Source: Candidatus Gastranaerophilales bacterium
GTDB lineage: Bacteria > Cyanobacteriota > Vampirovibrionia > Gastranaerophilales > Gastranaerophilaceae
Length of the DNA stretch: 44,236 nt
Assembly (NCBI GenBank): GCA_944325945.1
Contig: CALVBW010000003.1
Location: forward strand, 1 to 44,236
Direction: 5' to 3'
Shown: positions 8,884 to 43,703 of the stretch, piece by piece
Layout of the letters: the number at the start of each line of letters is the position of its first letter
How positions within the stretch are numbered: position 1 is the stretch's first letter
The notes under the pieces: generated by a model
Databases searched by the model: none
Told to the model about the DNA's origin: nothing
What the model saw: only the letters and a program-made list of their open reading frames with translations
Made by a program: the position numbers and the translations under genes

Positions 8884-9831
8884 TCATTTCCATGGGTAGT
8901 CGTTTTTGATTTGCCAACCATCCATGATTATTAAATTGGCACAAGCATATCCTCTGCCTGTACCATCAGTTTTGCAGGTCGAAGAACCGGATGTTGTTAA
9001 TTCTTCTCTTGTTAATCGAAAATGAAATCCGCCATTCGTGAATTGTTCATATGTACCCGGTACAAATTGTCCTTTTAAAGATTTCGGGTACGGTACAATT
9101 GAAAATACAAATACATCGCGCCCGTATCGGTTTGGTCCTTTGTAACCGTTTATATCTACATTTATCCGCAGGTGTGTTTTGGGTCTATTCAGGGGATTCG
9201 GAGCATTTAAGAATGGGTATCCGTTAAAGGCAAGTAACTTTCCATCAGGTAGAACATATTGCGGTTTAGCATTTTCATAGGAGCCTGAATCGTCAAAATC
9301 TCCTTCTAAGGTTTTCCAGGTATAATCCGGTTCCTTTTCGATTTTTTTAACCCCTTTTAAATACGGCAATATGTATAGTTCAGCAAAATCATTACCTTCA
9401 TTTGATAAAGTATTCCATGCCCATGTCTCAACATCACCATTTTCTGCAACAGAACGTCCATATGCCTGGCTGAATAACGAATATGTCTTTTTTAAACCAA
9501 CGATGGTCATTAATTTTTGATAATTCGCAATCAAAGTCGGAATGGTCATGGCAGCGACAACGCCGATTATGCCGAGGGTGATTAGCACCTCAGCGAGGGT
9601 AAACGCGGCTTTTTTAGAAGATACTAAGTTACTAAGGCAGTAAGGCACTAAGAATTTTCTGTGAGCTTCGCTCACTAATTTGTCATGCAGAACTTTACAA
9701 AGCGAACCAAAATTTTTGTCATGCTGAACTTGTTTCAGCATCTCATTAATTTTTTGAGATCCTTCGGCTAACATTTCAGGATGACCTGTAAAGTTACACA
9801 AAAACCTAATATGGTGTCGTGCCTCAGGCAC
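8884..9831 (-). CDS. Prepilin-like protein with uncertain, possibly phase-variable start
   Basis: The core begins at KKAAFTLAEVLITLG (codon 73 onward, near base 9615): a prepilin peptidase site followed by a hydrophobic helix, then a globular domain with VDINGYKGPNRYGRDVF near the C-terminus, as in type IV pilins and pseudopilins. The upstream ~70 codons read through palindromic repeat DNA (MLKQVQHDK-type text) and have no pilin character. The frame's first start is a GTG at 9831 without a Shine-Dalgarno; an internal GTG at 9648 gives a shorter leader. The only well-formed start nearby is the ATG at 9925, with GGAGG six bases upstream; it is one base out of frame because of a G11 tract at 9878-9888. 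Loss of one G would give a continuous gene 8884-9925. A true mobile start, a decayed leader or an assembly error are all possible. Confidence 0.7.
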   Translation of the reverse strand: MPEARHHIRFLCNFTGHPEMLAEGSQKINEMLKQVQHDKNFGSLCKVLHDKLVSEAHRKFLVPYCLSNLVSSKKAAFTLAEVLITLGIIGVVAAMTIPTLIANYQKLMTIVGLKKTYSLFSQAYGRSVAENGDVETWAWNTLSNEGNDFAELYILPYLKGVKKIEKEPDYTWKTLEGDFDDSGSYENAKPQYVLPDGKLLAFNGYPFLNAPNPLNRPKTHLRINVDINGYKGPNRYGRDVFVFSIVPYPKSLKGQFVPGTYEQFTNGGFHFRLTREELTTSGSSTCKTDGTGRGYACANLIIMDGWQIKNDYPWK

Positions 9832-9992: not shown

Positions 9993-10772
9993 TTAGAATA
10001 TGTTAGAGTATGATAAAAAGTATTCGCTAATGATATTCAACAGCATAGGCAGAATCCAGACCATGATAGCTGCGCCCAGAACAGGTTTGAACAAGAAGCT
10101 TAATTGAAAAACGTTTACCTGCGGCGCTGTTTTAGAAATTACCCCGAGGATTATATCCTGTCCTAACGTGGCAAGCAAAATCGGTGACGCTATTTGAAGC
10201 CCCATAAATAATACGTTTGATGATATGCTTATTAAATAATCCATATTAACAAGTTTGGCTAATGGAATGCTGGTCGCAAATATCGGAAAAATTTCAAAAC
10301 TTCGCATCAGCGCTCTGATTAACCAGTACGCGCCGCCGAGATTTATAAATATCAACAGCCCGAATAACGCCATAATTTTGCCTAAAAGTGATACCTGACT
10401 TGATGTTGTCGGTTCTAAAACCATTGCGGAGGAAAGCCCCATTTGCATATTTATCATATCGGCTCCCGCATCTACCGCCAATAATATTAATTGTGCCATA
10501 TATCCGATTAATGCACCCACAACTATGTTTAAAAATATTGACAGTGCAAAAGAATCCATTACCATAAGACTATCAGGCTTGACAAACGGAGTAATAACAA
10601 TCGTTAAAATTAAGCATAATGCAAGCTTTACCATCCCGGGAATTTCTTTTCTGTTAAAAATAGGCGCCAGTCTCATAAACCCGATGAGCCGCGAAAATAC
10701 CATAATACCTGCTGCAAGTGCGGTATTTAGCACAGGAAACATTTTCATTAATTCCGCGAGAATAATATCCAT
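9993..10772 (-). CDS. fliR: Flagellar/type III export apparatus protein FliR
   Basis: 259 residues, the normal FliR/SctT length. Multiple membrane helices, with the typical N-terminal RLIGFMRLAPIFNRKEIPG (entry of the FliR family, where an 'aPifg...iP' pattern is conserved) and the central DMINMQMGLSSAMVLEPTTS segment. FliR forms the export gate with FliP and FliQ in the inner membrane inside the basal body ring. Its start codon overlaps the stop of the preceding gene (TAATG), showing translational coupling. Last gene of the minus-strand export cluster. Confidence 0.92.
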   Translation of the reverse strand: MDIILAELMKMFPVLNTALAAGIMVFSRLIGFMRLAPIFNRKEIPGMVKLALCLILTIVITPFVKPDSLMVMDSFALSIFLNIVVGALIGYMAQLILLAVDAGADMINMQMGLSSAMVLEPTTSSQVSLLGKIMALFGLLIFINLGGAYWLIRALMRSFEIFPIFATSIPLAKLVNMDYLISISSNVLFMGLQIASPILLATLGQDIILGVISKTAPQVNVFQLSFLFKPVLGAAIMVWILPMLLNIISEYFLSYSNIF

Positions 10773-11143
10773 TATTTACCGCCTTTCATATCAGGAACCG
10801 GCGGTTCCGGTATTTCAATTACATCAGGCGGATTGTCCATTTGAAAATATTCAAAACCTTCCGCAGGTTTTATAAAAGTCTTTTTGTCGGTTATTTTGAC
10901 ATTTAAAACTTTTTCACCGTCAATCGTATTAATTATTATATCGGTTTTGCCTTCTGCTAACGGAGTCAGGATAATTATTTTTTTTTCGTTACTTATTGTA
11001 AAAACAGGTTGGGCTTCAATTATATTTTTATTTTGGACGGTTACGGATTTGACAATTGAGTTTGAAACAATCATGTAGTCCTCAAATGCCAGTGCAGGTT
11101 GTATAATATTTATTAGCAAAATAGTTAATATGAATTTTTTCAT
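10772..11143 (-). CDS. Exported protein with pilus/secretin N-domain-like fold
   Basis: 123 residues. A signal peptide is clear (MKKFILTILLINIIQPALA, cleavage near residue 19). The mature part has short alternating strands (IVKSVTVQNKNIIEAQPVF, then EKKIIILTPLAEGKTDIIIN), the pattern of the 'pilus formation protein N-terminal' domain of CpaC/RcpA secretins, where it precedes the secretin pore. No secretin domain follows. A short Pro-rich tail ends the protein. Its place between fliQ and fliR, coupled by TAATG to fliR and 2 bp from fliQ, implies a periplasmic part working with the export gate. This is not a standard flagellar gene. Confidence 0.7.
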   Translation of the reverse strand: MKKFILTILLINIIQPALAFEDYMIVSNSIVKSVTVQNKNIIEAQPVFTISNEKKIIILTPLAEGKTDIIINTIDGEKVLNVKITDKKTFIKPAEGFEYFQMDNPPDVIEIPEPPVPDMKGGK

Positions 11144-11145
11144 AA

Positions 11146-11634
11146 TTATCTTCCTAAAATTCTATTTGTTTCCACAAAATCAGGCCGCGGCATAGGAGTT
11201 CTTGAACTTGGCAGGTATTTCATTTTTTGCTGACTGTCTATAAAAGGAACTTTGCCCGGATTTTTCATAATATCATTGATTTTGGAATTATTGTCAAATC
11301 GGTCATTCATTTCACCTGCAAATGGTGTTGTGTATTTGTAATAATCAGACGACAGAACGTAAGTTTCATTTCTCGGAACAACATTGAAAGCAAGAGCCAT
11401 GCCGTCTGTAAAAAGGTTTGTAAGAATCCTTATGAAACCTACTCCGCCAATGATTATCACTAAAAATACGGCAAGAATTTTTGGTGCCGCGGCAATTGTT
11501 TGTTCTTGAACCTGCGTTACTGCCTGTAAAATACCAACAACCAGACCGATACCTGCAGCAACAAGTACACATGGCATTGATATTGCCAGCATTACCATAA
11601 ATCCTCTCGCTAAATATTCTATTAAAGGTTCCAT
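11146..11634 (-). CDS. fliQ: FliQ-like export gate protein with long C-terminal extension
   Basis: Residues 1-88 have the FliQ/SctS form: two membrane helices around a short loop with GIGLVVGILQAVTQVQEQTI, the conserved Q-x-Q-E-x-T/S region, and PKILAVFLVIIIGG. FliQ is usually about 89 residues; this one has 162, with a further ~74 hydrophilic residues (YVLSSDYYKYTTPF to the end) that I do not recognise. The gene lies between fliP and the secretin-N-like gene, with gaps of 8 and 2 bp. Confidence 0.88.
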   Translation of the reverse strand: MEPLIEYLARGFMVMLAISMPCVLVAAGIGLVVGILQAVTQVQEQTIAAAPKILAVFLVIIIGGVGFIRILTNLFTDGMALAFNVVPRNETYVLSSDYYKYTTPFAGEMNDRFDNNSKINDIMKNPGKVPFIDSQQKMKYLPSSRTPMPRPDFVETNRILGR

Positions 11635-11642
11635 AATTCTCC

Positions 11643-12284
11643 TTAATTGTAACTTGTAACCAGCCCCTGTACAATTAATGCCCAGCCGTCTACCGCAATA
11701 AATATTAAAAGTTTAAACGGCAGTGATATAATTGTCGGCGACAGCATAAACATACCTAGTGCCAGAAGTATGTTTGCTACCACAAGGTCTAATACTATAA
11801 ACGGAACAAATATTATAAATCCGATTTCAAAAGCTGTTTTTAATTCGCTTATAATAAATGCCGGAGCAACTTGCCATATGGTAATTTCTTCAGGCGATTT
11901 GGGCGGTGTTTTTTGCGATAATTCAACAAAAAACGCCAGATCGGATTCTCTTGTTTGTTTCATCATAAATTCTTTTAAAGGTTTTGAGCCTTCACTTATT
12001 GCCTCAATCATATTTTGGTTTTTGTGATACGGAACAGATCCCAGTTCATACATTTTTGAAAATGTTGTGCCCATTGTATAGAACGTCAAAATCATTGCAA
12101 GTCCTATAATAACAATAGATGGCGGTACCTGCTGTGTGCCGAGTGCCGTTTTGAGCATTGAAAATACTATGACAAATCTTAAAAAACTTGTCATACAGCA
12201 AAAGACAAACGGTATAAGAGAAAATACCGTCATGACTATCAATAATTGTAAAACAGGGTTTATATCTTTTAAAACTGTATCCAT
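11643..12284 (-). CDS. fliP: Flagellar/type III export apparatus protein FliP
   Basis: 213 residues with the FliP/SctR pattern: N-terminal helix with FSLIPFVFCCMTSFLRFVIV, LGTQQVPPSIVIIGLAMILT, a hydrophilic periplasmic section, then PAFIISELKTAFEIGFIIFV and GMFMLSPTIISLPFKLLIF near the end. FliP makes the five-copy core of the export gate. It lacks the long cleaved signal peptide of enterobacterial FliP, and its length is nearer to SctR. Nine bases separate it from the FliO-like gene. Confidence 0.93.
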   Translation of the reverse strand: MDTVLKDINPVLQLLIVMTVFSLIPFVFCCMTSFLRFVIVFSMLKTALGTQQVPPSIVIIGLAMILTFYTMGTTFSKMYELGSVPYHKNQNMIEAISEGSKPLKEFMMKQTRESDLAFFVELSQKTPPKSPEEITIWQVAPAFIISELKTAFEIGFIIFVPFIVLDLVVANILLALGMFMLSPTIISLPFKLLIFIAVDGWALIVQGLVTSYN

Positions 12285-12293
12285 TTTATATCC

Positions 12294-12662
12294 TTATATT
12301 TGATTGATTTTTTTAAGCATTTCTTTAATAACGGGTTTTTCTTTTTGCGGAAAATCTACAATTATCGGCAAATCTTCCATCTCCGGCTGCCTTTCTACGC
12401 GTTGGGATTTTGTATTATCATCAAGTTTTGAAATTAGATTTGTTTTGTCAACATCGGAAGCTATTAAGAATCTTTCGCGGCCTGCGCGGACTACGTATAG
12501 ATTTTTACGCGGAGCAAGGCTTATACATTCTTCAATCCCTAAGAATTGAGATTTGCTGCCGGAGCTTCCGTTTAAGAATTTTTTATATACAAAAAGCGCA
12601 AAGCAGATTAAACCGAGCATTGCCATTGTGTATACTGTGAAATTAGCTATATATCCTCCCAT
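12294..12662 (-). CDS. fliO: FliO-like membrane protein
   Basis: 122 residues: one N-terminal transmembrane helix (~8-27), then a short cytoplasmic domain with the FliO-type core (ECISLAPRKNLYVVRAGRER FLIAS) where 'l.p...l.vv..g....liG' is typical. FliO assists FliP assembly in flagellar systems and is missing from most injectisomes, so it argues for a flagellar origin of this cluster. Position directly before fliP supports the call; sequence similarity alone is modest. Confidence 0.75.
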   Translation of the reverse strand: MGGYIANFTVYTMAMLGLICFALFVYKKFLNGSSGSKSQFLGIEECISLAPRKNLYVVRAGRERFLIASDVDKTNLISKLDDNTKSQRVERQPEMEDLPIIVDFPQKEKPVIKEMLKKINQI

Positions 12663-12673
12663 TAATACCCCCT

Positions 12674-13846
12674 TTAAATATCTTCGTCATCCAGTTCAAA
12701 GTCGCTGTAATCAAATTCTTCGTCCTGTTGATCAGCGGCAGGAGAAGAATCTTCCGCATGCGGATTAACTTCCTCTGTATGAATCGGATTTTCTTCAGTT
12801 GAAAAATCATCTGTAGGTGCTGCAGGCTGTGTATTGCCTTTTTGCTGTGCAACGACTTCAGTTATTTTTACGCCGTAGCGGTCGTTTACAATAACAAGTT
12901 CTCCTCTAGCTATAACTTTATCTTCAACCCTTAATGTTACTTTGTTACCGTAAATTGACGTAAGGTCAACCACCATGCCGTCTTCTATATTTTTTAATTC
13001 TCCGAGAGTTATCTTTACAGCATCAAATTCCGCGTTCATTTCAACTTCAATGCTGTCCCATAAGTTGTTAGCTCCCATATTATCTCCTCCGTTATTATTA
13101 TCTATCGGTGTTATTAAACCCAGATTAGGGTTCAAATTAATTTCTTTTTCATAATCATCTATGATAAGCGTCATTTTTTTTGTATTGCTGTTATCAAAGA
13201 TTACCATATCTTCAATATCAAGATTTTTTAAATCATACATTGAGAATTTAGTTGAACCTATTTTTATTTTGACATCCAGTGTACTCGTTTTGAAAGTCGT
13301 ATTATCAAATTTTTCCCCTTTTGAGGCTATTGTGTCAGGATTTAGAAGGGCAGCGGGCAGTGACACAATAAATTTTCCGAATTTCGGTTCATCTACATCT
13401 TTTATTACAAACGTTAGATGTATTACATCAAAATTTGTTCGTCTTAATTCATTGGCTGGCGGCGGTGATAAAAATTTTGACGCCATATTAAACATATAGT
13501 CATTAAATGAGGTAATGATTTTGGCTTCTAAATCGGTCATTCTGTTCAGATTAAATGATCTGTTGGGTTTGCCCAATGCACGATCAAGAATTAGTGATAT
13601 TGCTTTTTCAGAACTCCTGAAAAACATATCGTATTGCTTGTCTATCCTTATTTTGGTAACAAAATAAGAGTCTTTATCCATCAGGGCATTTATATTTTTG
13701 CTGATGCCTATCATTTCAAATTTAAAGCCGGGTAAAAAGAATTCGTCACAGGCCTCCTGTACAACCGGCGGAAAAGTCTTTTTATACCAGTCGTATTGGA
13801 CGTACAATTCTTTTGAAGCTATTGAATTTAAAGTCTGAGTACTCAT
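12674..13846 (-). CDS. FliM/FliN/FliY-type C-ring protein with two SpoA-like domains
   Basis: 390 residues. Residues ~20-175 resemble the FliM/CheC-like middle domain (FGKFIVSLPAALL). A SpoA-like block is seen at ~188-245 (LDVKIKIGSTKFSMYDLKNL) and a clear FliN-type SpoA domain at ~264-334 (EVEMNAEFDAVKITLGELKN, then RGELVIVNDRYGVKITEVV). Residues 340-390 are acidic. FliM and FliN carry one SpoA each; two in one chain is the layout of injectisome SctQ. It probably builds the cytoplasmic sorting/switch ring. First gene of the cluster, with AGGGGA before its ATG; a divergent gene lies upstream. Confidence 0.8.
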   Translation of the reverse strand: MSTQTLNSIASKELYVQYDWYKKTFPPVVQEACDEFFLPGFKFEMIGISKNINALMDKDSYFVTKIRIDKQYDMFFRSSEKAISLILDRALGKPNRSFNLNRMTDLEAKIITSFNDYMFNMASKFLSPPPANELRRTNFDVIHLTFVIKDVDEPKFGKFIVSLPAALLNPDTIASKGEKFDNTTFKTSTLDVKIKIGSTKFSMYDLKNLDIEDMVIFDNSNTKKMTLIIDDYEKEINLNPNLGLITPIDNNNGGDNMGANNLWDSIEVEMNAEFDAVKITLGELKNIEDGMVVDLTSIYGNKVTLRVEDKVIARGELVIVNDRYGVKITEVVAQQKGNTQPAAPTDDFSTEENPIHTEEVNPHAEDSSPAADQQDEEFDYSDFELDDEDI

Positions 13847-14055: not shown

Positions 14056-15789
14056 ATGGGACTCGCGGCATCACAAGCCAGATTATTAACCATCACAGCG
14101 CGTAAATCCGACTGTGAGTTTCAATCCATGCGCTATTCGCATCAAAAAATAGCGTTATCCCGTGATCTGGCTAATTTGTCAGCTGAGTATCAAAATTCTT
14201 TAGATCAGACAAAATTAGTCTACGATTTTTATGGAACAGGTGATGAGACTACTCCGTTAAGTTATGGTTTAATGATGACCCCATCAGAAATGAACGGATA
14301 TTTACCTATTTTGACAACTGATGCGGCAGGAAAAGTAGTTTTAAGCAGCGCATACGCATCAGCAGCTGCAGCGGCAGGTATTCCTAAAGAAGGATTGGGA
14401 TGTTTGCCGTCAAGCGAAATGCGTAATAAATTCTTGCAAGGTATGGTAGACAGTGGTCTTATAAGCCAAGAATCCGCCAATACTTATATGGGAATTATGT
14501 ATTCTCAGGATATAGGTAATGGTACTACAGATCTGGTTACAACAGAGGTTCAGTCAATGTCTCTTGCAGAGTTGATAGAATATTATGAATCAGGTGAAGC
14601 AGGTGCAGCTATATTGACATATTCAGGGGCATATACAACTCTAGGCGGAGAAAATGGTGCTAATGAAGTGGTTCTGCGTAGTGAAAATGGCGGTGAAAAT
14701 ATTACATCAGGTGATGGCTCCGCTACAATAACTTTATCTCAATTATTAACAGGTGATTATCAAATTTTATGTAAGGTTGCTAACGAATGGAAAGATTCAT
14801 ATGATGGCAGAATTAACGAAGTTGCAAGTAGAATCAAAGATTTAGATATATGGAACCAGATGTTTGATATGTTTGCAGACATGTTAGGCGTACCTGGTGA
14901 CGTAAATGTTGCAACAGCTATTAATTATGCAAAATCAAAAACAGAAGCTCTGTTAGATTCTAATAAAATGGCACATAATTTTTGGGGCAAAACAAAAGAA
15001 AATAAAAAAGATGATGACTGGGTTGGTGTTCTTGATGCGATGAACGCACACTCTTCAAATCGTGATCAGGGATTTGTTTGGGATTGGTTCAGGGCTGATC
15101 AAGGTACTTATTCAACATCTGATTTTATAGGTATAACAGCATATCATAACACTAAAAACGCTAAAAATAACAGAGCCCATGGTGTATCAATAAGCATTTC
15201 AAATATTGCAAGAGCATATTTGACTTATTTTGCTGAATGTATGCAAGGGCTTTCTGATAAAGTTACTTCAACAAAATATTATGTTGATGCTGATCATAAT
15301 GATGGTCGTAGAGTAGACCAGAGTAATCTTGTAGGTTTGGATGATACTTCACTTACGTTTGATATCGTTGTCGATACCGGTGTAAACGCTGATCAGGCAT
15401 TGGTAACAGGATTCTATGATGCAATATTCAACCAGATATGTTTGCGCGGCTGGACAGAAAATAATCAGGTTCAGGATAATGATTATCTGCAGGAAATGTT
15501 AAAAACCGGTAAGTTATTTATGGCAACATGTTCTGATGACGGATATTATTATCAAGGTAATTATTCTACTAATACCTATGTCCGTGAGGTTACCGACGAT
15601 GAAGCGATTACAAAAGCCGAAGCTAAGTATAATACTGAAAAACAAAAGTTGAATCAGAAAGAAGAAATTTTAGACCTGAAAATGAAAAATCTTGATACGG
15701 AAATATCTTCTTTGACAACGGAATACGATACAATAAAATCAGTAATTTCTAAGAATATTGAAAAATCTTTTAAACGATATGATGCATAA
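14056..15789 (+). CDS. MGxAASQAR-family large protein, candidate export substrate
   Basis: 577 residues from the ATG at 14056. A TTG at 13948 extends the frame, but the extension has no protein character, and the paralogue at 36882 starts at the same place with the same GAAAGGAAAT upstream. The N-terminus (MGLAASQARLLTITARKSDC, then ~45 helical residues) and C-terminus (EEILDLKMKNLDTEISSLTT, ending NIEKSFKRYD) match the paralogue, while the ~450-residue middle does not. Conserved helical ends around a variable middle recall flagellin, hook or filament-type proteins. There is no signal peptide. It is divergent from the export cluster, so export by FliPQR is a plausible inference. No known family is claimed. 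Confidence 0.7.
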   Translation: MGLAASQARLLTITARKSDCEFQSMRYSHQKIALSRDLANLSAEYQNSLDQTKLVYDFYGTGDETTPLSYGLMMTPSEMNGYLPILTTDAAGKVVLSSAYASAAAAAGIPKEGLGCLPSSEMRNKFLQGMVDSGLISQESANTYMGIMYSQDIGNGTTDLVTTEVQSMSLAELIEYYESGEAGAAILTYSGAYTTLGGENGANEVVLRSENGGENITSGDGSATITLSQLLTGDYQILCKVANEWKDSYDGRINEVASRIKDLDIWNQMFDMFADMLGVPGDVNVATAINYAKSKTEALLDSNKMAHNFWGKTKENKKDDDWVGVLDAMNAHSSNRDQGFVWDWFRADQGTYSTSDFIGITAYHNTKNAKNNRAHGVSISISNIARAYLTYFAECMQGLSDKVTSTKYYVDADHNDGRRVDQSNLVGLDDTSLTFDIVVDTGVNADQALVTGFYDAIFNQICLRGWTENNQVQDNDYLQEMLKTGKLFMATCSDDGYYYQGNYSTNTYVREVTDDEAITKAEAKYNTEKQKLNQKEEILDLKMKNLDTEISSLTTEYDTIKSVISKNIEKSFKRYDA

Positions 15790-17276: not shown

Positions 17277-17302
17277 ATTATAACATAAAATTAATCTGTC
17301 AA
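17277..17302 (-). promoter_or_regulatory. Probable rnpB promoter
   Basis: Reading the minus strand: TTGACA (17297-17302), 14 bases, TATAAT (17277-17282), then about seven bases to the mapped 5' end of rnpB. Both boxes match the sigma-70 consensus but the spacer is short; TCCTTG three bases further away gives a 17-base spacer. It overlaps the stop codon of the prepilin gene. Confidence 0.55.
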
Positions 17303-17998
17303 GGATGAACTTACCTGCAATGCTTCTCTTGCCCAGCTTTGTTCCTCCGGAATTTCAATAGTTCCGTCATTACTTATTTCCATTGAAAATCTGTCGAAAT
17401 TTTTGGTTCGTGATTTGCAGGCATTATCAGCGTCAGAATCTCCCTGAAGACAATTTGGTTTTTTGTCACCGTTTACATCAACTGTAATGACATGTGTGTT
17501 GGCACCAAAACCTTCAGGGTGATATTTTGTGCGTAAATCCCAGTTGATACCATCTGGTGTTGTAAATAGTCTACAAATTTTCCGGTAGCTCTGTCCTCCG
17601 GGAGCTATTGAAGGAGGTGCATCTGGATCAATAGTTACTGCCGGGCATTCATCTTCAATTTCACCGTCAACGTTTAAATGCACCGCAAATAATCCTATAA
17701 ATTTTGCAGCTTTGTCTTGTATGTTGGTTCCGCCATAGTTTTGTCCTGCATATGTTACTTCATCCGTATTGTCAAATCCTACTCGTGTAGTGCCGCTATT
17801 GTCTACAGGTGCATATAAATTAGGATCATTTATCATGTCACTTACAATATTAGCAGTCGTGTAATATGCCCTTTTCATCATAATTTTATTCTGGTTCGGC
17901 ATTGTCCTGAGTATTGCGGGAAGTACTGTCGCGCATAATATGCCAAGTACCGTTAAGGCTATCATTAGTTCTGATAATGTAAATGCTGTTTTTTTCAT
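17291..17998 (-). CDS. Type IV prepilin-like protein
   Basis: 235 residues starting MKKTAFTLSELMIALTVLG: a short basic leader, then F as first mature residue with E at +5 and a hydrophobic helix to ~30, the full prepilin signature. After the helix comes MPNQNKIMMKRAYYT, nearly the same as in the next gene, and the C-terminal part has VDVNGDKKPNC and FDRFSMEISNDGTI. These also match the neighbour at 18009-18680, so the two are tandem paralogues. Expected location is a pilus or pseudopilus in the envelope after cleavage by a prepilin peptidase (not in this window). GGAGGA precedes the ATG. Confidence 0.85.
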   Translation of the reverse strand: MKKTAFTLSELMIALTVLGILCATVLPAILRTMPNQNKIMMKRAYYTTANIVSDMINDPNLYAPVDNSGTTRVGFDNTDEVTYAGQNYGGTNIQDKAAKFIGLFAVHLNVDGEIEDECPAVTIDPDAPPSIAPGGQSYRKICRLFTTPDGINWDLRTKYHPEGFGANTHVITVDVNGDKKPNCLQGDSDADNACKSRTKNFDRFSMEISNDGTIEIPEEQSWAREALQVSSSLTD

Positions 17999-18008
17999 AT
18001 TCCTCCAT

Positions 18009-18680
18009 TTATTCTGTTAATGATGAATTTACCTGAATAGATTCCATTGCCCATTTATCATCGGAATGTATCTTGACGGTTCCGTTTGCATAAAGTTTCA
18101 TTCTGAATTGATCAAAGTTATCAGACCTGTTTTTGCAATTATCTGAATTGCTTCCTTCATAACAGTTAGGTTTTTTGCTGCCGTTGACATCAACGCCTAT
18201 TAAAATACTATCTGTGTAACTTCCTTTTGTTAATACGGATTTTTCAAACGCCCAGCTCATGTTATCATCAGTAGTCAGGTAATAACATGATGAACCAACA
18301 CCGTTACAGTTGGCATTCCCGCTTTTTGAATAGGTTGCATCAGTTTTTATTGTATTTTCATCGGGTATTCGTTCATTTTTTGTGGATAGTCTTTTTGAAA
18401 AAAGATACGGGAATTTGGAATCTGCCTCTGCACAGTCAAATCCTATATAACCCCCATCACCGTTGTCCGGACATAAACCGTAAATTACAGGGTAGTTTTC
18501 AGAATCGTTGATTAAATCATGCGTTATATCAAGAAATACAGTGTATGCCTTTTTCATCATCATTCTGTTCTGGTTTGGATTGTTGTTTAAAAGCCCCGGC
18601 AGTACTATTGCGCATAATATTCCGATTACTGCTATTGCTACCATCAGTTCTGTTAAAGTGAATGCTTTGAAATTTTTCAT
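18009..18680 (-). CDS. Type IV prepilin-like protein (tandem paralogue)
   Basis: 223 residues starting MKNFKAFTLTELMVAIAVIG, a class of leader with the cleavage site before F and E at +5. NPNQNRMMMKKAYTVFLDIT follows the helix. VDVNGSKKPNC, NFDQFRMKLYANGTV and a terminal SIQVNSSLTE are shared with the paralogue downstream, which ends LQVSSSLTD. The gene has AGGAAG before its ATG and lies 10 bp before the second prepilin gene, so they form an operon. Cysteines at corresponding positions suggest conserved disulphides. Confidence 0.85.
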   Translation of the reverse strand: MKNFKAFTLTELMVAIAVIGILCAIVLPGLLNNNPNQNRMMMKKAYTVFLDITHDLINDSENYPVIYGLCPDNGDGGYIGFDCAEADSKFPYLFSKRLSTKNERIPDENTIKTDATYSKSGNANCNGVGSSCYYLTTDDNMSWAFEKSVLTKGSYTDSILIGVDVNGSKKPNCYEGSNSDNCKNRSDNFDQFRMKLYANGTVKIHSDDKWAMESIQVNSSLTE

Positions 18681-18852: not shown

Positions 18853-19218
18853 ATGGTCGATAACAGATCTGCAGGATTTTTTGGAATAGGCGGCGCTTTT
18901 AATTTTAAAAGCGGTGATATTTCAGGAACTGCTGCCAGAACTCAGGATGATAAAATGGGTCAGGGCGGCGAATATTTTGCCCAGCAAAAACGCGAAGATG
19001 ATGAAGCTCAAGAACAAAATAAATATATGGACCAAAGTGCTGTCCTGCGTGCGACTTTAAATTCCCTTGCCATGATGAATGTTGCGGATGTTATTAATGC
19101 CAAAAAAAAGAAGATAACCCTCAAAGGCAAGTCCAAAGAGGATATCAAAAATAAAAAAATTGAGGAATCTTTAAAAATTAATGCTGAACAAGACACTGAA
19201 GACGAAGATTTTTATTAA
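18853..19218 (+). CDS. Unrecognised small hydrophilic protein
   Basis: 121 residues. The N-terminus is Gly/Phe-rich (SAGFFGIGGAFNFKSGDISG), the middle is charged and helical, and the end is Lys-rich then acidic (EQDTEDEDFY). No signal peptide or membrane helix. Upstream lies AAAGGG nine bases before ATG and TATAAT at 18821. The stop overlaps that of the convergent gene by four bases (TTAA shared). I recognise no family. Confidence 0.6.
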   Translation: MVDNRSAGFFGIGGAFNFKSGDISGTAARTQDDKMGQGGEYFAQQKREDDEAQEQNKYMDQSAVLRATLNSLAMMNVADVINAKKKKITLKGKSKEDIKNKKIEESLKINAEQDTEDEDFY

Positions 19219-19712
19219 CCGAATATGTTGATGTCTTTGTGTTGTTCTTCTTTTTTGTGTCCTTCAGCTAAAAGTTCACCGTGATAGAAAGGATTTGAGC
19301 CCTTTTTATCTTTTGCGGTGCTGAAACTTATAATTGAATTGAATTTAGGAGTTTCCGGTGCTTTTTGAACATCGGTTCCTTCGTAAACTGAAAATGCAAT
19401 TTTGCCTTCAACATTTTTCTGTACCTGTTGTGCAGCTTGCGTATTTAAAAATTTTATTGAGTTTAAAACATTTTGATTAAGTTGAATTTGAATACCTGAA
19501 TTGTTTAATGCAATTTGACGTGCGGTTTGTGAGTCTACTTGATATAAATCTAATCCCAAATCCTGTGCTTTGAATGAGGTATTCATAGCACCTGTTTGAG
19601 CTTTCATAGCTTTTGCCTGAGCTCTTTTAAGGATTTCGGCTGATACTTCTTTTAATATTGAAGTATCAATACCTGTTTTGTAATTTTGAGTGTAATTTAC
19701 GCTAAGACTCAT
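19215..19712 (-). CDS. Unrecognised protein, 165 aa
   Basis: Mostly helical and Gln/Ala-rich in the first two thirds (ILKRAQAKAMKAQTGAMNTS, QIALNNSGIQIQLNQNVLNS), then a mixed C-terminal part with several Lys/Glu. No signal peptide, membrane helix or known motif. ATG with GGGATAAT upstream. It converges with the 121-residue gene on the other strand and shares the TTAA at the stops. No function can be assigned. Confidence 0.6.
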   Translation of the reverse strand: MSLSVNYTQNYKTGIDTSILKEVSAEILKRAQAKAMKAQTGAMNTSFKAQDLGLDLYQVDSQTARQIALNNSGIQIQLNQNVLNSIKFLNTQAAQQVQKNVEGKIAFSVYEGTDVQKAPETPKFNSIISFSTAKDKKGSNPFYHGELLAEGHKKEEQHKDINIFG

Positions 19713-19878
19713 TTTATTATCCCTTTTTTCCTTGTATTTTGTTAATCGGCATTATGAGCTTCAAACTTTAATATTTTTACTATTTTTTGTTACAAAGCTT
19801 AACATTAAAATAAATTCTAGCAATTTTTATATGTATGAAATTGTTTATATATATAGAGTATATAAATGAGGTATAAAA

Positions 19879-36772: not shown

Positions 36773-36881
36773 TTTTGTAAAGATTTTGTAACATAAGACA
36801 TTTAAAAATTAAAGAATATATCTCAAGGTGCCGATATCACATGTGTAAGTACAAAACTTGCAGAAAGGAAATCGACACGCT

Positions 36882-37928
36882 ATGGGTATGGCAGCGTCAC
36901 AAGCTAGATTTTTAGGTCTGACAGCCAGAAAAAGCAATGTTGAGTTTGAAGGTCAACAGATAAACCAGCAACGTACAACATTGTCTAACCAGTCAGCAAA
37001 TTATTATAATAGTTTGCTCGGTATGTCCGTGCCGACACCTCCTTCAGTAGATAATTATACAAAAACTGTTTATACATTTAATGATGGTGCATTAACAAAT
37101 ACTATCACTACTTTAATAGCTCAAAATGACGGTTTTTATACTTTAAGCTATTTATCTCAATATGAGGATGAATTTACACCTGTTGCGGCATCTACAAGTG
37201 TTGTTAATAAAGATGACAATGGTAATTTTTATGTCGGTGCAGTACAGTTGAGAGAAATGGGTGCGAATATCACTGATGAAATGATTAAAAATGATCCTTA
37301 TTTGAGCACGTTATCTGACGATCAAATTGATAAATTGAAAGATGAAGAAGCAGCTTATATTACACTTTTAAATGAAAAATACGGAACAAATACCTGGATG
37401 GTAAGATATGTTCAGAATTCATCCACAGGCGTATGGTCCCCGTATTTCTATAAAATGTCTGATTTGAACGGTCCCGGTGTAGTTACCGATGCAAATGACA
37501 ATATTACATCAGCAGTCAGCTGCTATACTATGGGATCTGACACAAAAACCAACGAAATTAAAGGTGTTACGGATTGCAAAATTGAAAAAGATTCAACCGG
37601 AAGGTTTATATCCATAAGTATTCCTTCAGAACGGGATGATCAGGGTAAAGTTACTAATTATATTACGTATACATTGACTACATCAACAGTAACCGATCAG
37701 GATGCATATGATGATGCAATGAATCAGTATGAATATGATAAATATTTGTACGATCAATCAATACAAGAAATTAATGCGCAGATTGAAATTATTCAGGCTC
37801 AAGATAAAAATCTTGAACTGAGATTGAAACAGTTAGATACAGAACAAAGTGCTATTTCTACAGAAATGGACGCTGTAGAAAAAGTAATTGAAAAAAATAC
37901 GGAAAGTTCATTCAAAACATTTGGATAA
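36882..37928 (+). CDS. MGxAASQAR-family protein, short paralogue
   Basis: 348 residues from ATG 36882 (a TTG at 36858 only adds eight codons that cover the Shine-Dalgarno GAAAGGAAAT). N-terminus MGMAASQARFLGLTARKSNV EFEGQQINQQRTTLSNQSA and C-terminus (NLELRLKQLDTEQSAISTEM, then EKNTESSFKTFG) match the 577-residue protein at 14056; the middle (~60-290) does not. The C-terminal ~60 residues form a long coiled coil. No signal peptide. It lies 110 bp after the HEAT-like gene, with its own upstream TTTTGTAACAT site, and before a terminator. An exported filament-like or adaptor protein is a guess. Confidence 0.7.
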   Translation: MGMAASQARFLGLTARKSNVEFEGQQINQQRTTLSNQSANYYNSLLGMSVPTPPSVDNYTKTVYTFNDGALTNTITTLIAQNDGFYTLSYLSQYEDEFTPVAASTSVVNKDDNGNFYVGAVQLREMGANITDEMIKNDPYLSTLSDDQIDKLKDEEAAYITLLNEKYGTNTWMVRYVQNSSTGVWSPYFYKMSDLNGPGVVTDANDNITSAVSCYTMGSDTKTNEIKGVTDCKIEKDSTGRFISISIPSERDDQGKVTNYITYTLTTSTVTDQDAYDDAMNQYEYDKYLYDQSIQEINAQIEIIQAQDKNLELRLKQLDTEQSAISTEMDAVEKVIEKNTESSFKTFG

Positions 37929-42104: not shown

Positions 42105-43703
42105 TTAAGCGCTTTTATCCTGCATATCACGTCCGCCGACAATTCTCAGGTGTCTCTGGTCGCCCTCTCCAACTGATTGGCTTTCAAGGTTGTGCTGTTC
42201 AACAAGTTCATGCTGGAGTTTTCTAATCTGGTGGTTTTGCGGCTGAAGTTCAACGTGTTCGGCGCCTGCGAGGATTTTATTTATTGCGGCTTTAGCTTCA
42301 TCCAGCGCACGTTCCGCGTCATCATAATATCCGCGTAGAGTTTCGTTTGATTCAGGAACGTCAAGTGCTTCTTTCAAAACTTTTTGAATTTGTGCCATTG
42401 AGTTTGTTTTCACGTAAAAAATTCTGAGTCTGTAGTCGTTTGCGGTATTCAGAACTTTTGCCCCGCCTTTTGCAAAGTTTTTGTGGGCAATTACAATATC
42501 CGCATCTTCAATGCTTCGAGTTATTTCCGCGTTCAAGTCAAGTCTTTCAATTACTTTTTCAACAATACTTCTTGATACTGCATAAAGGTAGATTTTCTTA
42601 AATGCCTTGACACTTTCGGTATAATCTTTCCGGTTAAAGCTGAATTTGAGACTGTCAGATGAATCCGGAATTTTTTCTTCAAGTTTTTGAATCTCTTCTG
42701 CAATAGTAGGTTCGTGATGATCGTATGTCTGGTCAACTTTTCTTATTTCAGGTCTTATCGGCCAGCCTCTGAGAATGTAGTCAACAGCTTCTGCTGTATC
42801 TTTGTAAACGGCAAGAGTATTTCTGTCCAGAATTTCTATAACGATATCAAAAGTCGGCTGTTTTTCGCGTTCAAGAACGGTTTTTTGGGACGCTCTGCGT
42901 TTCGCTTCATCGTCGCCTAAGGTTACCGATTGAATCCCGCCGACTAAATCCGACAGTGTCGGGTTTTTGATTAAATTTTCCAAAGTATTACCATGGGCAG
43001 TTGCAATCAACATAACGCCGCGCTCTGCAATTGTTCTGGCTGCTTGAGCTTCGGCTTCGGTACCGATTTCGTCGACTACAATAACTTCAGGTGTGTGATT
43101 TTCGACAGCTTCTATCATTATGTCTTTTTGAAATTCCGGTTGGCGGACCTGCATACGACGTGCATGGCCTACTGCCGGGTGCGGAACGTCACCGTCGCCG
43201 GCAATTTCGTTTGACGTGTCGACTATCACCACCCGCTTTCCGAGTTCATCGGCAACAAGTCTTGAGATTTCTCTCAGTTTTGTCGTTTTCCCGACGCCCG
43301 GTCTGCCCAAAAATAATATACTTTTGTTTTGCATACAGAAATCTTTTATACAAGCAATTGTTCCCGTAACAACTCTCCCGATTCTGCAGGTAAGACCGAT
43401 AATTCTGCCCTGACGGTTTCTTATCGCACTTATCCTGTGGAGTGTTCCGGGTATGCCTGAACGATTATCCGATGTAAATTCCTGAACTCTTTGTGTTATA
43501 AAGGAAATATCTTCGTCCGTGACTTCATTTTTGCCAAGATACTCAATTTTCCCTGAAGAATGTCTTATCTCAGGGACTCTGCCGATATCCAAAACGATTT
43601 CTATAACATCTTGCAAGCTCTCATAGGTGATGTATTTTCGAACCTTTTCGGGCAAGATTGCGATTAACTTTTCTAAGTCGTTTTGAAATTGTAAATCTGT
43701 CAT
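42105..43703 (-). CDS. AAA ATPase with R3H domain (Ycf45-like)
   Basis: 532 residues. Walker A GRPGVGKT at 133-140, Walker B VIVVDE at 207-212 followed by IGTEAEAQAA, and IATAHGNTLENLIKNPTL, as in the Ycf45/SpoIIIAA ATPase family. An R3H domain closes the protein (~490-525: IRKLQHELVEQHNLESQSVG and RHLRI), with the R-x3-H signature for single-stranded nucleic acid binding. This combination is characteristic of cyanobacteria and plastids, though not exclusive. AGGAGG precedes the ATG; an extended -10 lies upstream. Physiological role unclear; nucleic acid handling is likely. Confidence 0.88.
   Translation of the reverse strand: MTDLQFQNDLEKLIAILPEKVRKYITYESLQDVIEIVLDIGRVPEIRHSSGKIEYLGKNEVTDEDISFITQRVQEFTSDNRSGIPGTLHRISAIRNRQGRIIGLTCRIGRVVTGTIACIKDFCMQNKSILFLGRPGVGKTTKLREISRLVADELGKRVVIVDTSNEIAGDGDVPHPAVGHARRMQVRQPEFQKDIMIEAVENHTPEVIVVDEIGTEAEAQAARTIAERGVMLIATAHGNTLENLIKNPTLSDLVGGIQSVTLGDDEAKRRASQKTVLEREKQPTFDIVIEILDRNTLAVYKDTAEAVDYILRGWPIRPEIRKVDQTYDHHEPTIAEEIQKLEEKIPDSSDSLKFSFNRKDYTESVKAFKKIYLYAVSRSIVEKVIERLDLNAEITRSIEDADIVIAHKNFAKGGAKVLNTANDYRLRIFYVKTNSMAQIQKVLKEALDVPESNETLRGYYDDAERALDEAKAAINKILAGAEHVELQPQNHQIRKLQHELVEQHNLESQSVGEGDQRHLRIVGGRDMQDKSA

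Follow-up and report, generated by a model that had tools for sequence, protein, structure and literature searches.

Flagellar gene sets in Gastranaerophilales have been described as reduced flagella (Di Rienzi, 2013, PMC3787301; Soo, 2014, as far as the available text of both goes), and the accessible part of the former explains the missing filament, cap, junction and L/P rings of MEL.A1 by genome reduction, while a termite relative is called probably motile in the available text of Utami (2018, PMC5877343). An intermediate between flagellum and secretion system has been described in the secretin-less type III secretion system (T3SS) of Myxococcales, which, according to the accessible portion of its description, is without FlgB, FlgC, FliE and a needle subunit (Abby and Rocha, 2012, PMC3459982); the same portion reports profile similarity of SctF to FliC/FlgL. 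Papers joining "type III secretion" with "Melainabacteria" exist, while none joining "flagellar type III secretion" with "Melainabacteria" was found in the literature. Here, a stretch of 44,236 nucleotides (the window) was analysed, which is the whole of contig C3 of the draft genome of a Candidatus Gastranaerophilales bacterium (1,625,433 bases in 32 contigs, 97.7% complete) and which encodes P0001 and P0002, two members of one protein family. These two proteins and their paralogues are, at a probability of roughly 0.6, late axial-type substrates of a second, hook-less flagellar-type type III export apparatus of Vampirovibrionia (Melainabacteria), an apparatus that is best seen in Gastranaerophilales.

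Common ends, differing middles and the predicted fold

The two family members of the window are the following:

14056..15789, + strand: P0001, family member of 577 amino acids (aa), open frame, divergent from the SpoA-FliOPQR operon
36882..37928, + strand: P0002, family member of 348 aa, open frame, with a predicted helix at residues 2-47, a beta domain at about 60-271 and a helix at 273-347

Comparison by BLASTP revealed similarity of P0001 and P0002 at the N ends (53% over 49 residues, E 7e-10, 20.8 standard deviations (SD) above shuffles) and at the C ends (41% over 58 residues, E 2e-8, 12.1 SD above shuffles), while the best match between the middles had an E of 3.8 and lay 0.7 SD above shuffles. 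With the ends standing so far above shuffles a chance resemblance was rejected, and the observation of a first-pass annotation, made from the sequence, that the two proteins are alike at both ends and not in between is borne out. Its wording of unrelated middles holds for this pair but not family-wide, since some paralogues align along the whole length: P0001 and a paralogue on contig C20 give a full-length alignment (32%, E 3e-85), and P0002 matches the 418-aa paralogue on contig C8 at 34% (E 5e-52). The statement that neither protein has a signal peptide was also correct, as no such stretch is present and the largest 19-residue hydropathy is 1.19 in P0001 (residue 91) and 0.57 in P0002 (residue 62).

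Seven long members (348, 375, 418, 520, 577, 603 and 660 aa) and one core-only member of 108 aa, consisting of all of the ends without a middle, are encoded in this genome. Two gene fragments at contig starts (G000:C17:3-179 and G000:C25:3-179; loci L004 and L005) are 92% identical to P0002; near-identical P0002-like copies probably break the assembly, so that the copy number of the family is underestimated. Regarding relatives, for which all per-gene statements on the family, on flagellin and on rod-domain matches across genomes are lower bounds, 3-28 family matches per genome were detected among the matches listed, the length of 86 members with both ends in related loci ranges from 332 to 772 aa, and tandem copies of unequal length are present at loci L117 and L097. 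Mean pairwise identity in 62 P0002-type proteins (P0002 and 61 of 77 candidates, 16 having been omitted, 13 of them over 440 aa and 3 near-duplicates) is 89% in residues 1-50, 81% in residues 273-348 and 50%, with gaps, in the middle.

No curated flagellin, HAP or rod profile (Pfam, NCBIfam) was matched over its cut-off by P0001 or P0002. A sequence relative with a solved structure was rejected, the PDB giving generic coiled coils only (best CSM1, E 3e-4), as was a viral or phage origin of P0002, for which BFVD held no match at E<=0.001.

The AlphaFold2 model of P0002, built from 62 sequences (mean predicted local distance difference test score (pLDDT) 90, predicted template modelling score 0.55), has its terminal helices, 2-47 and 273-347, flanking the beta domain. 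The first ten rows of a Foldseek search of the PDB with this model were all flagellar filament or cap entries; in VIA-align, FliD caps came top (Z 9.8, 9.5 and 9.4, the FliD identity of the first and third rows being a reading of entry titles), followed by flagellins (for example Z 8.3, 1.7 A over 109 residues), FlgL, hook and rod, and 26 of the top 28 rows were flagellar axial proteins aligned across both ends (residues 1-348). The absence of needle proteins from the VIA-align rows of P0002 carries no evidential weight. For P0001, modelled from 10 sequences, terminal helices are predicted at 4-49 and 515-576, mostly at pLDDT 71-90, and the middle is poor. The flagellin- or hook-type axial layout with pairing terminal helices that had been proposed for both proteins is therefore upheld for P0002 by the confident model and its axial fold neighbours, while for P0001 it extends to the terminal helices, the middle and the fold search giving no discrimination.

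A second flagellar-type apparatus and its co-occurrence with the family

The start of P0001 lies 210 bp from a SpoA-FliO-FliP-FliQ-x-FliR cluster of the opposite direction, confirming the divergent position of one member that had been reported. The cluster consists of:

12674..13846, - strand: SpoA/FliN-domain protein (C-ring type); FliMN_C E 8e-21, TIGR02480 fliN 66 bits, below cut-off
12294..12662, - strand: FliO; Pfam FliO E 3.5e-7, TIGR03500 45 bits, below cut-off
11643..12284, - strand: FliP of the short type, 213 aa; TIGR01103 234 bits against a cut-off of 217, and tree
11146..11634, - strand: FliQ with a C-terminal extension; profile match
10772..11143, - strand: small protein between fliQ and fliR; signal-peptide-like start by eye, weak match to a pilus/secretin N-domain (PF13629, E 0.017, below cut-off)
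9993..10772, - strand: FliR; profile match

Investigation of the co-occurrence of the family with this apparatus revealed its presence in 58 of 59 relatives, exactly those with FliP (58 with both, one with neither), while flagellin was detected in 29 of the 59 and not in this genome; on these counts the possibility that the family tracks the flagellum was rejected. In a class sample of 146 genomes, FliP was found in 90, the family in 69 and both in 68, the sole family-positive genome without FliP being a 130-contig draft (G171). Members in genomes without FliPQR, which the first-pass annotation had named as speaking against a link with export, are thus limited to that draft, presence of the family and of FliP agreeing in 59/59 relatives and FliP being found in 68/69 family-positive class genomes. 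Flagellin was found in 27 genomes of the class sample, all of families f10, f11, f14 and f15 (our labels) among the matches listed. When the surroundings of FliP in f10-f15 were searched locally, no family members other than those of this genome were recovered.

Two kinds of FliP are present, that of the window (about 213 aa) and a longer kind which, among the relatives, is confined to flagellin-bearing genomes. In a FliP tree of 35 rows the short clade is split from the long clade and E. coli FliP at 100/99, and its 21 rows come from families f1, f2, f4, f6, f7 and f10-f15. The canonical FlhA, found besides or instead of a second kind, is present in 26 of 29 flagellin-positive and none of 30 flagellin-free relatives, while FlhA of the second kind was detected at full length in all 29 flagellin-free relatives that have FliP. 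FlhB is present in 58/59 relatives, mostly as a single copy in the flagellin-free ones, and most flagellin-bearing relatives have two sets of FliP, FlhA and FlhB. Thus, on the counts from the class and from the relatives, the family follows the short-FliP apparatus and its own FlhA rather than flagellin.

Regarding the further parts of the apparatus in this genome, FliE, FliF, a 330-aa protein without assignment, FliH and FlhA follow one another on contig C8, FliI is encoded on C20 and FlhB on C11, and C18 carries a FlgF/FlgG-like pair, FlgB and FlgC, with a true FliA gene (241 bits against a cut-off of 190) at a distance of 3.6 kb. FlgB and FlgC score above cut-off, and both of the FlgF/G-like proteins exceed that of TIGR03506, the first narrowly. 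The total is FliE, FliF, FliH/I, FlhA/B, FliO/P/Q/R and four rod-type proteins. Family genes lie close to some of these, with 2.1 kb between FliI and the C20 member and 3.3 kb between FliE and the core-only member, and in at least 12 of the 16 genomes of the same genus a P0001 counterpart adjoins FliP. In genome G046 the order is FlgF-like, FlgG-like, FlgB, FlgC, a probable transglycosylase, FliE, FliF, two unassigned genes, FliH, FlhA and FliI, and no small protein is encoded between fliQ and fliR.

Flagellar models outscore injectisome models throughout (FlhA 697 bits against 582 for SctV, fliP 234 against 199 for SctR, fliR 152 against 114 for SctT and flhB 339 against 320 for SctU) yet often stay under their own cut-offs, and the apparatus is therefore divergent. 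Its identity as an injectisome was rejected on these scores and on the presence of FlgB, FlgC and FliE. A flgE is named in the gene list in the available text of Di Rienzi (2013, PMC3787301), but the hook protein FlgE was not found in this genome, in which Flg_bbr_C matches are limited to open reading frames (ORFs) of at most 246 aa, all of rod type or weak; none of the rod-domain matches listed, with E down to 4e-6, came from an ORF longer than 430 aa in a flagellin-free genome. Rather than a stray FliPQR cluster, the export system is of flagellar type and occurs across the whole order. The suggestion that the two proteins are axial substrates of an unusual type III-like export system has to be modified in this respect, and because neither hook nor flagellin was found with the apparatus here, the proteins are not simply the flagellins of a flagellum.

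Upstream regions provide a further connection with flagellar gene regulation, with candidates scored against the sigma-28 (FliA) consensus:

36810..36837, + strand: candidate promoter of sigma-28 (FliA) type for P0002, matching the consensus at 11 of 12 bases
19215..19712, - strand: 165-aa protein, with a sigma-28-type promoter candidate at 19746-19770

The pattern TAAAG-N14..16-NCCG[AT] within 150 bp upstream, ORFs with fewer than 150 bases upstream being omitted, is present for 5 of the 7 long members of this genome and 5 of 191 other ORFs (Fisher 2e-6); P0002 and four of the six other long paralogues have it, while P0001 and the 418-aa member do not. In related loci the pattern precedes 58 out of 87 members, against 6 out of 674 other ORFs. 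From its upstream sequence, the 165-aa protein may be a further member of the regulon.

Two side observations concern related flagellar genes. A 490-aa protein with the cytosolic FlhA domain and without the membrane part (L017:9164-10636, G000:C2) is widespread in relatives, and its homologue in G046 adjoins FliJ-, FliK-, FlgD- and FlgE-like genes (L020:9328-15019, named by eye). In flagellated relatives the flagellin N-domain was seen, among the matches listed, in very long open frames of 672, 3249 and 1557 codons (G020:C1:269824, G031:C28:23102 and G041:C2:401045).

Core-only hairpins, proposed mechanism and rival explanations

In families f10, f14 and f15, 32 of 34 family matches lie in open frames of 110-139 codons with the N and C halves adjacent, and 16 proteins of 108-124 aa, read from these matches, match both end models. 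An alignment of fourteen core-only sequences, including three from Gastranaerophilales, has gaps only at the turn and in the last residues, and the turn motif D/E/N-P-x-S is present in 13 of the 14. Since members in these three other class families are core-only hairpins of about 109 residues, the variable middle is inserted at the hairpin turn. The alignment of the G060 core with only the two ends of the 418-aa protein of this genome (1-64 at 50%, 367-417 at 53%) indicates that the latter is the core with an insertion of some 300 residues at its turn. From the spread of the core-only form outside the order and its presence inside the order we infer that this short form is ancestral. The 14 core-only members have no flagellin, HAP or rod profile match over a cut-off. 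They also gave no needle-family profile match (Pfam, E<=1), although short fast-evolving proteins can escape detection, and no PDB sequence match to the needle family was obtained for them.

Core-only and long members head a conserved gene module, in which they are followed by a Gly/Ser/Ala-rich protein of 270-319 aa (35-46% identical when this genome is compared with three further families) and, in three of four genomes, by a small helical protein of 76-90 aa whose sequences are barely alike. The Gly/Ser/Ala-rich protein (L009:8345-9157, L173:5524-6432, L179:6295-7167 and L183:6777-7736) has no Pfam match over cut-off and could be a partner substrate.

In the proposed mechanism, the apparatus would comprise an MS-ring, an export gate, an ATPase and a rod of FliE and FlgB/C/F/G-type proteins, and a FliA-type sigma factor would turn on the substrate genes. 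The chains would exit via FlhA/B-FliP/Q/R, and outside the cell the N- and C-terminal helices would pair, as in flagellin D1 or FliD, the paired ends being stacked either onto the rod or onto each other, with the middle domain exposed to the outside. The hairpin of about 109 residues may have been the ancestral unit, at the turn of which Gastranaerophilales would have inserted a domain that differs between paralogues, much as flagellins acquired their outer domains. What the computations show is the common ends, the hairpin core, the predicted fold, the joint occurrence with the short FliP/FlhA system, the enrichment of the promoter pattern and the lack of flagellin; we infer from this the export of the family, its polymerisation, its position on the rod and a surface role in adhesion or host/mucus contact. 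More tentatively, at somewhat less than even odds, this would amount to a third kind of type III-built appendage, neither flagellum nor injectisome, in which a hook-less flagellar-type basal body with a rod is topped by a polymer or tip consisting of a new two-helix subunit of 109 residues that in gut Gastranaerophilales has become flagellin-like through variable insertions at the turn; it would represent an independent exaptation of the flagellum, kept beside a working flagellum in some relatives.

Several results weigh against the family being axial substrates of this apparatus. None of the 22 genomes of families f11-f13, all of which have the short FliP, contains a member at E<=1, even with a broader profile, so presence of the apparatus does not always entail that of the family. 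Sequence searches of Pfam, NCBIfam and the PDB linked the family to no axial protein. The best Foldseek E for P0002 is only 2.4e-3, VIA Z values of 6-10 with long helices may, as the tool warns, reflect a common arrangement, and the P0001 model is poor, with MukB leading its non-discriminating fold search. The promoter count for related loci is not independent, because the pattern was set after the upstream regions of this genome had been viewed and because these loci are mostly those of P0002 orthologues; flagellin upstream regions of flagellated relatives, a weak control, have the pattern in only 2 of 20 cases. Two of the four core-only genes of G060 lie near true-flagellum genes, and the client machine there is therefore ambiguous.

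It is unlikely, though the best placed of the alternatives, that the proteins are exported by the second apparatus in soluble or surface-attached form, as adhesins or effector-like proteins, and build no polymer, their ends serving as export signal, chaperone site and dimerisation hairpin. The many paralogues per genome with different middles, their wide range of lengths and the conserved neighbour module would fit such substrates, but conservation extends to both ends, beyond the N end alone, the predicted fold is nearest to axial subunits, and the 109-aa core-only forms carry no cargo domain. Less probable again is a family unconnected with type III export, that is a cytoplasmic or otherwise secreted coiled-coil scaffold whose lineage is shared by descent only. 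The FliP-bearing genomes of f11-f13 that are without the family, the generic coiled coils returned by sequence searches and the distance of most family loci of this genome from export genes point in that direction; however, only one draft among the 56 FliP-less class genomes has the family, sigma-28-type promoters and FliA are retained in a flagellin-free genome, P0001 adjoins SpoA-FliOPQR, and the fold neighbours are flagellar. The published reading of a decaying flagellum, in which the family would consist of relics or unrelated genes, appears very improbable: most flagellin-bearing relatives have two sets of FliP, FlhA and FlhB, canonical FlhA is present in 26 of 29 flagellin-positive and in no flagellin-free relatives, the retained set always belongs to the same distinct FliP clade, and full-length FlhA of the second kind in every flagellin-free genome with FliP is unlike random decay. 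Late axial-type substrates of the second apparatus thus remain the preferred reading.

As a separate observation, genomes of family f13 (loci L031-L034) have the short FliP but neither flagellin nor a member of the family, and in L031 and L034 a gene that looks FliJ-like by eye is found close to SpoA-FliOPQR; this gene set is possibly a further variant of the apparatus. Other genes observed in the window are:

8884-9831, - strand: prepilin-like protein with a methylation-motif start (PF07963 match)
17291-17998, - strand: prepilin-like protein with a methylation-motif start (by eye)
18009-18680, - strand: prepilin-like protein with a methylation-motif start (by eye)
42105-43703, - strand: 532-aa ATPase, by eye of the cyanobacterial ycf45/SpoIIIAA-R3H type

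Comparison with known systems

If the preferred reading is true, gut Gastranaerophilales, which have been described as losing flagella, keep a distinct export machine and surface proteins of their own, and the picture of their contact with host mucus changes; judging from gene order, the "flagellar" tree of Di Rienzi (2013) may then rest in part on genes of the second system. The question of how a flagellum becomes a secretion system has leaned on the Myxococcales intermediate (Abby and Rocha, 2012), and another intermediate of independent origin, equipped with a rod and with a subunit that can be followed from the core hairpin to forms with inserted domains, would make this question directly testable.

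With flagellin, HAP3/FlgL and FliD the family shares terminal helices that are predicted to pair, an exposed variable middle between them, a sigma-28-type promoter, a flagellar-type exporter and the fold neighbours; it differs from them in that no sequence similarity was detected, no hook/filament system was found in the genome, a core-only form of 109 aa exists and the family occurs in flagellin-free genomes. The core-only form, a short two-helix protein with a proline turn, can in this respect be likened to the needle subunit SctF of non-flagellar T3SS, while the apparatus differs from these systems in having FlgB/C, FlgF/G-like proteins and FliE and in its higher flagellar than Sct scores. 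The Myxococcales intermediate, as far as its available description goes, is alike in being a flagellum-derived export machine without motility parts, whereas the Vampirovibrionia apparatus retains the rod and FliE and comes with a candidate subunit family of its own. Regarding the reduced flagella of Di Rienzi (2013) and Soo (2014), the gene set is as listed in the accessible text of these studies, and the numbering of the ACD20 cluster (flgG, flgG, flgC, fliF, fliH, flhA, fliI) fits the operon order of L019/G046; the difference is that it belongs here to a second, separate system, present beside a full flagellum in most flagellin-bearing relatives. Since every one of the known families departs from what is seen here in one or more of the features tested, we assign neither the proteins to the flagellins nor the machine to the flagella or the injectisomes.
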